From assembly GCA_022578965.1 (NCBI GenBank), contig MU400682.1, positions 25,066 to 89,065 of the forward strand: DNA of 64,000 nt. Direction: 5' to 3'. Both the position numbers and the translations under genes were made by a program. Origin of the DNA: Xylaria sp. FL1777 (lineage: Eukaryota; Ascomycota; Sordariomycetes; Xylariales; Xylariaceae). The notes beneath the pieces were generated by a model. The model was not told the origin of the DNA. It worked only from the letters and a program-made list of their open reading frames with translations, and did not search any database. This document shows positions 28,104-30,680 of the stretch, piece after piece (the first letter of the stretch is position 1; every line of letters begins with the position of its first letter).

Positions 28104-30680
28104 CTAAGATAGGAGTGCGCCGGCTTCTTGGACCTCCTTCTCGTTATCCGTGCTGTGCTGCCCAGCCAGCCAGCAGTCTGCCTTATCCACGACAAGTTCC
28201 CAAGCACCGGCCTCGTGAGCTAAGCGGGTGCGGAAGAAAGCAATGGCTAGAGCCGTAGCGACGATGGAGTTTTGTCGAATCGGTGTCTTAGCTTTGGATA
28301 AGTTGGCACCCGTGATGTCAAGCAGGGACTCTTCCCATTCCCAAGATCCGTCGAATTTCTGAAGCCGGATAAGAGCGTGCAGTTTCTCTTCGTCACATGC
28401 TTTCGTTTGGAGGCGGGCGCTTCTTCGTGAGGGGCTTGAGGACCTGGTCTTTTTCTCCAGTGGTGCATCTTCGCATTTCCTCTTAGTTGGGACTGATCTT
28501 TTGGCCGGGGCTGGTCTTGTCGGGGCTGATCTTCTGGCCGCTTTGGCACATAGTTGTTTTCTCGGAGGTGGTGAAGACCTCTGGTACATTTTGCCGGTAA
28601 ACGAAATGGGCTGGTGCTCTTTGTCCCCCTCCACCGCGATGAATGAACACCACTTCCCAGCGACCTGATACGTAACACCAAGACGTATGGCCTCGCGCTC
28701 GACTATTTCATCCCATTGGCTTTCATATTCACTCTTCAGAAGTACGTTAGAGTCTTTTTGAGTGGCTTTGCTCAGCCAGCCATGACCTTTCTCCAGCTCT
28801 GAGACTGCCTGCTTGGCGGCAAGTTGATGGATCGTTTCTCCTCTGCCGACGTCATCTACTTCAATCTCTAACTTGATTGGTCCATCCTTAGAAATTGCTC
28901 GAAGGATTATGGACTCTGGCGTAAGCCCGTAGGTGCTTGAGTCGAGCAAAAGGAATATTGTCAGTCGCGAAAACGAGTAAAATGGAGGAACTCGGAATGG
29001 CGCCTGGAGAATCGATGGGGCTGAGACTATGGGTACGTGGGCGAATCTATCTCTCTCCACGCCCTCTGTGCGATCCTCATCTACATCACCACTTTCACTA
29101 GTGAATGTCATTGCGGCTTTATCGGCGCCCTTGTTCTTCTCTCGAACAGGCAAAGTGATGGCAACCTTGGATGCGTCCTCATACGTAACCATCTCGTAAT
29201 CCTCGTCATCCCTCTTATATTTCACATCAAGGGAATAGTCAGCCAAGTGTGGCGACAAAGCACTCTTGAGGAGTTGAACCATCTTTTTGTCCATTGGTTC
29301 CTCTTCAGCGACGAATTGACTTGTTCCATTCCCTTCGGTAGCTATGCCCTGCACGAGCGACGTCGAAGCCCCCTGACCGATTCCAAGGGAAAAGAAGCGA
29401 CTGCCATATTGCTCTGCAGAGTCACGAATCATCTTAAATAAGACATCTTGATTCCAAATTTCTCCATCGGTTAAGATGAGGACATTAAGCACCAGATCTT
29501 GATCACGCCGGGAGAGTGTCTCTCGAATTGGCGGTATCATTTCGGTCCCGCCGAAGTTTGCATCCATAGCATCAACGTATTTTAATGCCTCGTCGAGATT
29601 CACTTCGTTGTATGGTTTACTGCGTGGCCAGATATACGAGAAGTTACTCCCAAAAGAACAGATATTGAATTTGACGTCGACTCGGAGAGATTTGAGCATC
29701 GTGTTCATTGCCTGTATTACCATGCCCATCTTGCCACCCATGCTCCCAGATCGATCGATAACAAAGACAATCTCGCTGGGACTAGACGGTAATTGAAACT
29801 TCGGCACTAGAGTAACCAGCAATGCCCGTTGGTTCGGAATAGTGGGATGTGTCTCGAGCAACGCCTTGGACACGTTCCCATTCTCAAGGTTGACCATAAC
29901 AATGAAGTCTTTGTCGAAGCTGGTATAGTTGAGTGAGAGCGTTGCAGATCCACGGTGGGGCATGAAAGCTTCAGTAGGCATGTCGGTAGTACGCCCTATA
30001 TTCACAGCGATAGGGTGACTGGGAGACTGAATACTTCGAATGGGGCAACCTTCGGGACCCTGAACATCTACAATGATCTGAATAGCGTCTTGAACGGTCG
30101 AAGAGAACGAAGGCGAGCTAAGAACGTTATCTGGGGTAGCCCCATAACGAGGGGCAATCAGAGAAGGGATCGTCAAACGTAAGCCGTCGACTTGAGCGTC
30201 GTAATTCAACTCGCCTATATATACGAGCTTGACGATAACACTGCTGCCTGCTGGGACGTTGCCGATATGTGTAGTAAAAACATCGGAAGCTTCAGGCAGC
30301 TGCTCTAGGAGGGCAGCTACTTTCCCCTTGGAAACAGCCTCTTTGAATTTGAGACGAGCTTGCGTTTTGTCTTTGACAATGCCATTTATCTCAATATCGC
30401 CAACAGTAGTAGTAAAGGAAACGATGGAAACACCACCATAGATTGGGAACGAATAAACCAAATCCTCTAAATCTTCGTTGGTCTCGTTCGAAAATGTTTG
30501 GGTAAGAGTAGTACGTGAGGCAACATCCTTGATGATAGTGTGAGCTTTGAGGCTCGATAGGGGAAGATAGAACCGACGAATGTGCGAGGCGTTGACTGGG
30601 TTTTTGAAGGGGTACCAACAACCTATGAGTGGTGGACTAATATTGTAACGGCCTCGGGCCGTCTGCTTAGTACGGGCCAT
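28104..30680 (-). CDS. VIT/vWA domain protein with a histone-H3-like N-terminus
   Basis: Single-exon gene of 858 residues. Family: inter-alpha-trypsin-inhibitor-type VIT domain (about 15-155, with [20 protein letters not shown] and [12 protein letters not shown]) followed by a von Willebrand A domain (about 300-480). The vWA has a full metal-binding MIDAS: DRSGS at ~309-313, the Thr in FGGTEM and the Asp in ILTDGE. After a beta-rich region comes a basic, Lys/Arg/Ser-rich stretch (~715-760, with [16 protein letters not shown] and [11 protein letters not shown]), likely a nuclear signal, and a helical C-terminal domain ([19 protein letters not shown]). Remarkably, residues 1-9 are MARTKQTAR, exactly the start of histone H3, followed by GRYN. 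The first ATG has good context. Molecular role unknown; chromatin contact is inference. Confidence 0.88.
   Translation of the reverse strand: [858 protein letters not shown]

Follow-up and report, generated by a model that had tools for sequence, protein, structure and literature searches.

Several non-histone proteins imitate a stretch of histone H3 to engage H3 enzymes or readers. The short mimics among them (G9a, ATF7IP and the viral ARKS/ARSK motifs) reproduce no more than a few residues surrounding a single lysine. In vertebrates, PAF15 (PCLAF) carries an H3-like N-terminus, VRTK, which binds the PHD finger of UHRF1 with a dissociation constant (Kd) of 2.2 uM (1.5 uM for H3), and its K15 and K24 are ubiquitylated, leading to the recruitment of DNMT1; the authors liken the spacing of these lysines to that found in H3 (PMC7060239). 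Here, we analyse a stretch of 64,000 nucleotides from the fungus Xylaria sp. FL1777 (contig MU400682.1, positions 25,066 to 89,065; hereafter the window), together with the rest of the assembly (58.7 Mb, 588 contigs), and we focus on a gene of the window whose product has a VIT and a vWA domain and starts with the exact first residues of the H3 tail. We propose, giving it about an even chance, that this protein is a VIT/vWA scaffold in which two pieces together imitate the H3 tail under selection and would act as a ligand or substrate of H3 readers or writers.

The VIT and vWA core is shared with PARP4 (the vault PARP), Dictyostelium Vwa1, VWA5A and the ITIH proteins. Among solved structures, the best match to the window protein is PARP4 (over residues 40-488, E 2e-21), followed by ITIH4 and ITIH1, and a Foldseek search with a model of the protein gave ITIH1 and mainly vWA domains as its top matches. 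Unlike PARP4, neither the window protein nor its paralogue in the same genome (hereafter C99, after its contig) has a PARP catalytic domain, and no histone domain was found in either of them (Pfam, E up to 5), so that the likeness to H3 concerns the tail sequence and the histone fold is absent. The vault domain MVP_shoulder had no match in the genome, nor in the control genomes. Histone mimicry encoded by the host itself is already known from PAF15; what appears to be new is its occurrence in the VIT/vWA family, since the matches listed from the open-licence literature (titles and abstract starts) include none that reports an H3 tail in a VIT/vWA protein of fungi. In the main text of the paper on Dictyostelium Vwa1 and the evolution of this family, the word "histone" occurs 0 times (PMC10539598).

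Two H3-like pieces in the window protein

The original prediction, that the open reading frame (ORF) starts with MARTKQTAR followed by GRYN, was confirmed: the first nine codons are ATG GCC CGT ACT AAG CAG ACG GCC CGA, and the encoded residues are identical (9/9) to the N-terminus of the product of the H3 gene of the same genome (contig C127). ARTKQTAR is encoded at 2 loci of the assembly in a pattern search (the H3 gene and the window gene) and the reversed pattern at 0. From the residue frequencies of nine ORFs of the window, and in a calculation made post hoc, the chance of an exact 8-mer at a given start is 2.3e-10, that is, about 3e-6 exact N-termini expected in a genome if 15,000 genes are assumed. 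When the first 40 residues were compared with H3, 1 of 5000 shuffles scored as high. The looser pattern Met-x-Arg-Thr-Lys was uninformative (348 matches in the genome, 404 in the control). The start codon itself is well supported, if not proven: an in-frame stop lies 8 codons 5' of this ATG, which is the first in-frame one after that stop, and the next Met in this frame comes at residue 234, already past the VIT domain, so that a VIT-bearing product must start at the ATG of position 30680, barring a spliced upstream exon.

The second piece is found in the linker that precedes the C-terminal domain, where residues 706-721 align without gaps to H3 16-31, with 12 of the 16 residues identical. The H3 likeness of the linker (residues 690-765) has a score of 63, which was equalled or exceeded by one linker shuffle in 5000, and by none of 500 whole-protein shuffles; taken alone, the block would thus be good but not overwhelming evidence for H3 likeness. 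The linker (residues 693-765) is strongly basic, with 11 R and 9 K among its 73 residues, and the original prediction had seen in it a stretch near 715-760 resembling a nuclear localisation signal. Basic it is, but the alignment with H3 led us to reject the idea of a mere localisation signal, given that residues 706-721 copy H3 16-31. Neither did the notion that only the Lys4 side of the tail is copied hold, as the K18/K23/R26/S28 side is present elsewhere in the same protein. With the two pieces taken together, R2, R8, R17, R26, K4, K18 and K23 are kept, K27 is replaced by R and H3 9-15 is absent; three of the four lysine positions covered are therefore retained, setting aside the Gly that follows residue 8.

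It is highly improbable, in our judgement, that these likenesses reflect chance, a convergent basic low-complexity sequence or a wrongly assigned start codon. Such an explanation can appeal to the shortness of the pieces, to the abundance of R, S, K, P and A in a linker for which one shuffle of 5000 scored higher than the real sequence (70 vs 63), and to the modest enrichment of the corresponding words in the assembly, where PRKQL-type DNA words gave 97 matches (72 in the control) and the pattern GGxAPRK gave 3 (2 in the control). However, of the three GGxAPRK matches, one is H3, another C99 and the third a sequence with Ser for Arg, the scores of the window protein and of C99 were never reached by shuffling the whole proteins (0/500 each), the exact N-terminus is expected so rarely per genome, and the ATG is not only the first after the in-frame stop but also has a TATAAA upstream. 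Chance becomes untenable because the second H3 piece and the paralogue join the N-terminal match.

The codons bear on a further suggestion of the original prediction, namely that the 5' end of the gene was captured from an H3 gene. In the N-terminal piece, 5 of the 9 codons differ from those of the H3 gene, each at the third base and all synonymously, which is still compatible with such a capture. In the inner piece, 15 of the 16 codons differ (11 synonymously and 4 nonsynonymously), which speaks against a recent capture of an H3 5' end as its source, and we rejected this origin for it.

The C99 paralogue and the history of the H3-like block

The paralogous VIT/vWA gene lies outside the window (assembly G000, contig C99:37385-40122, locus L013). 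Its product, obtained by joining two exons across an inferred GTAAGT..CAG intron, has 889 residues and is 55% identical to the window protein; the intron interrupts the vWA domain of C99 and is absent from the window gene. C99 carries VRTRQTARRSTGGQAPRKQLCSNAMRRS in the part that separates its vWA region from its C-terminal domain; this sequence aligns with H3 2-28 without gaps, and further with one gap. Over H3 2-28, 20 of the 27 residues are identical (19 of the 21 non-lysine positions, plus K18), and the H3 score of this tail is 108, a value as high as which was reached by none of 5000 linker shuffles (the best scored 64) and by none of 500 whole-protein shuffles. Both paralogues thus differ from the short mimics in the length of what is copied: 8 exact N-terminal and 16 internal residues in the window protein, and about 27 in C99.

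With the whole of H3 as query, the genome search gave fragments of the H3 gene and of a CENP-A-like gene as well as one stretch of C99; with H3 1-41 (E up to 10), it gave the H3 gene and C99. The window gene appeared in neither search, because its two pieces are each short. The CENP-A-like centromeric H3 gene (G000 contig C134:26828-27201, L016) has an N-terminus that is apparently Gly/Arg-rich and unlike the H3 tail. Among more distant relatives, no H3-like block was found in the VIT/vWA protein of contig C15, in the vWA ORF of contig C189 or in five bacterial relatives (scores of 17 to 31, with 66 to 489 of 500 shuffles as high), and a VIT fragment on contig C71 is readable only as broken exons. 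The five belong to 7 relatives (26-28% identity) obtained in a search of bacterial and archaeal genomes, 5 of which were aligned and tested, none of them with an H3-like block; as to the others, L026 has no ORF of 300 residues or more, and L023, scored by frame only, reached at best 26 (the window protein has 63 and C99 108). Viral contigs had no match to the window protein, and gave 3 vWA matches (31% identity) when searched with the alignment of the paralogues.

The original prediction had named orthologues with unrelated N-termini and no ARTKQTAR as evidence against itself. In C99, the N-terminus does lack ARTKQTAR (it reads MVRTNYPSVPP, and 587 of 5000 shuffles of its first 40 residues were as H3-like), but an H3 tail is present internally.

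The changes that separate the C99 tail from H3 are concentrated on lysines. Over H3 1-28, C99 keeps 4/4 Arg and 6/6 Ser/Thr and only 1/6 Lys (K4R, K9R, K14Q, K23N and K27R, with K18 staying). This pattern can be taken in favour of a different use of the H3-like tail, which we consider unlikely, as a decoy or sensor: a bait for an H3-tail protease, kinase, methyltransferase or foreign effector, which would spare chromatin or trigger a response, the lysine-poor tail of C99 being then the form that resists lysine modification. About 4 kb downstream of the window gene there is an ORF for a STAND-type nucleoside triphosphatase (NTPase; NPHP3_N), of a class that takes part in self/non-self reactions of fungi, which would fit such a role, although gene neighbourhood is weak evidence. 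The lysine-concentration test was, moreover, made after the pattern had been seen, and its P of 0.0014 (positions 2-28) rises to 0.003 for positions 1-28 and to 0.013 for positions 2-32. The lysine-poor state belongs to C99 alone, because the window protein keeps K4, K18 and K23, and we know of no attacker for which the bait would be laid.

The same substitutions bear on whether the block serves only as a nuclear import signal for a karyopherin of the Kap123 type, since Kap123 recognises H3 1-28 as an import signal through K14 and K23, with no sequence-specific contacts to residues 15-22 (PMC5677370). The strongly basic linker is in keeping with such a signal, and could still suit other importins. 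In C99, however, positions 14 and 23 are Q and N; in the window protein, K23 is present and K14 has no equivalent; and PRKQL, which is conserved in both paralogues, falls where Kap123 does not read. As C99 has lost both lysines while both paralogues keep PRKQL, import by a Kap123-type receptor is disfavoured; import as the only role, which would also leave the exact N-terminal ARTKQTAR unexplained, seems to us quite unlikely.

The comparison of the two paralogues gives some indication of age and selection. Two differences from H3, A21C and K27R, are common to both, and the H3-like block would therefore be older than their split (S31T was excluded from the shared changes, as it depends on gap placement in C99). 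Within residues 706-718, 10 of 13 residues are identical between the paralogues, whereas the linker flanks have 3/12 and 11/39, together 14/51 with gapped columns set aside (one-sided Fisher P 0.0016), and even the VIT (68/114) and vWA (94/154) domains are less conserved than this block. An alternative origin, which we rate as rather improbable, is that a fragment of an H3 gene was fused into an ancestral VIT/vWA gene and persists as a relic devoid of mimic function. In its favour, the C99 copy follows the order and register of H3, gapless over H3 2-28, and the window copy lacks H3 9-15. A relic should drift, however, and here the block is better conserved than the linker around it, and 11 of the 15 codon differences from H3 in the inner block are synonymous. 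Residues kept while codons diverged are what is expected from selection on H3 likeness, and a selected H3-tail mimic that predates the duplication fits these sequence comparisons best.

Several points weigh against a selected mimic. The N-terminal piece was picked for its identity to H3, and its lack of nonsynonymous differences is thus not independent evidence. The limits of the block, 706-718, were set after the alignment had been viewed, and a wider choice (705-721) gives 11/17 identical residues. The comparative argument comes from a single paralogue of the same genome, whose N-terminus lacks ARTKQTAR and shares only x-R-T with that of the window protein, and the two H3 pieces of the latter are about 700 residues apart. 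Finally, N-terminal acetylation would hinder binding to PHD fingers.

Gene layout and neighbourhood

The features of the window are collected in Table 1. Both domains of the window protein score far above their Pfam cut-offs (VIT, 106.1 bits vs 26.5; VWA_3, 96.6 bits vs 27, with DRSGSM at 309), and the DxSxS, T379 and D405 of the vWA domain are presumably its metal-site residues. The structure model, built from 6 sequences, has a mean predicted local distance difference test score (pLDDT) of 47.6, and its low confidence at residues 1-45 and 688-806 lends weak support to disorder in these regions. Searches of the PDB sequences with the C-terminal domain and with the first 22 residues gave no match.

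Table 1. Features of the VIT/vWA gene and of its surroundings in the window
Feature	Position	Strand	Basis or remark
VIT/vWA gene, 858 residues, one open frame	28104..30680	-	Pfam VIT E 1.5e-30, VWA_3 E 2e-27
Putative N-terminal H3 mimic MARTKQTAR (initiator Met and H3 residues 1-8)	30654..30680	-	Sequence match
Putative internal H3 mimic, residues 706-721 vs H3 16-31, 12/16 identical	28518..28565	-	Gapless alignment
VIT domain, residues 41-154	30219..30560	-	Pfam
vWA domain, residues 303-456; DxSxS 309-313, T379 and D405 present	29313..29774	-	Pfam
Basic Arg/Ser/Lys/Pro/Ala-rich linker, residues 693-765, housing the internal H3-like block	28386..28604	-	Composition, low model confidence
C-terminal domain, residues 766-858; 48/86 identical in the paralogue; predicted helical, low confidence	28107..28385	-	
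TATAAA, 117 bases 5' of the ATG	30792..30797	-	No ATG of any frame in between
STAND-type NTPase ORF and alpha/beta-hydrolase-like ORF	22967-25290	-	NPHP3_N E 3.9e-12; hydrolase match weak, below Pfam cut-off
ORF with GDSGA motif	8664-10157	-	No Pfam match at E 0.01
ORF with GDSGA motif	11995-13698	-	No Pfam match at E 0.01
Divergent neighbour of the VIT/vWA gene	32400-33731	+	
Gig2-like gene, split over at least two ORFs	34558-35869	-	PF07350

The NLR-like fungal gene formed by the STAND-type and hydrolase-like ORFs lies downstream of the VIT/vWA gene, at a distance of about 3-5 kb. The GDSGA motif of two further ORFs resembles that of trypsin-type serine proteases. The divergent neighbour starts LPLLILEEICEYV; an F-box identity, considered because this start resembles an F-box, had no Pfam support and was dropped. 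A VIT/vWA protein of Dictyostelium acts together with an F-box protein (PMC10539598).

How an H3-like tail could be used

Our reading of the sequences is that the window protein and C99 probably imitate H3 to engage the chromatin machinery, with the VIT/vWA scaffold of the former being probably intracellular. The mimic proposed in the original prediction is in this respect supported, by the N-terminus, by the internal H3 16-31 piece and by the copy of H3 2-28 in the paralogue, while methylation of Lys4 and competition for readers are, like the binding, the modification, the direction of the effect and the partner of the putative mimic, features that we infer.

In the mechanism that we propose, the initiator Met would be removed, as expected before Ala, leaving a free Ala-Arg-Thr-Lys end that could occupy the H3-binding pocket of an H3 reader or writer of the PHD or a similar type. 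PHD fingers read the A1-R2-T3 residues of the H3 N-terminus, and in those of BAZ2A/B the change R2A raises the Kd above 1000 uM and T3A leads to no binding or to a Kd above 5000 uM, K4A causing no loss (PMC5415848). The linker piece, probably flexible, would present the surroundings of R17/K18, K23 and R26/S28 to the same or to a second H3-tail enzyme, and a further partner would attach through the vWA and C-terminal domains. As a result, either this partner would be brought to the H3-handling machinery, or the machinery would be held off chromatin.

We think that the window protein may work in a manner similar to PAF15, because a mature ARTK end and K708/K713 are parts of the same kind. Both are non-histone proteins whose mature N-terminus copies H3 (VRTK in PAF15; ARTKQTAR in the window protein, if the Met is removed as supposed), and K708 and K713, which are 5 apart and match H3 K18 and K23, would be lysines in an H3-like setting. 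In PAF15, by contrast, K15 and K24 are 9 apart within one N-terminal tail, whereas the lysines of the window protein lie about 700 residues from the N-terminus in a protein of 858 residues. A pattern search for the PIP box (Qxx[ILM]xx[FY][FY]) found none in either paralogue, unlike PAF15, and the absence of this box, the other domains and the distance between the pieces indicate that the window protein is not a relative of PAF15. The genome contains one SRA match (G000 contig C17:298448-298900, L063), in which the SRA domain stands alone within the 377-residue open frame considered; this frame shows no PHD or RING, and thus lends no support to a partner of the UHRF1 type.

More tentatively still, there may exist in some filamentous fungi a family of VIT/vWA proteins with imitation H3 tails, comprising a form with a free, methylatable ARTK end and an H3 16-31 block, and a form whose tail is almost complete, lysine-poor and therefore resistant to modification. 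These would together constitute a soluble and tunable competitor or sensor of the H3-tail machinery, in a kind of chromatin control or of defence for which the papers searched give no description. As the precedent of PAF15 shows, the upkeep of DNA methylation can be governed in part by a short H3-tail imitation that the host itself encodes. If the N-terminus of the window protein is methylated, a non-histone protein of such fungi might also be recognised by antibodies against H3K4. Should the proposal be true, these soluble H3 mimics would be natural competitors of H3-tail enzymes, and the titration or sensing of the H3 machinery would become testable.

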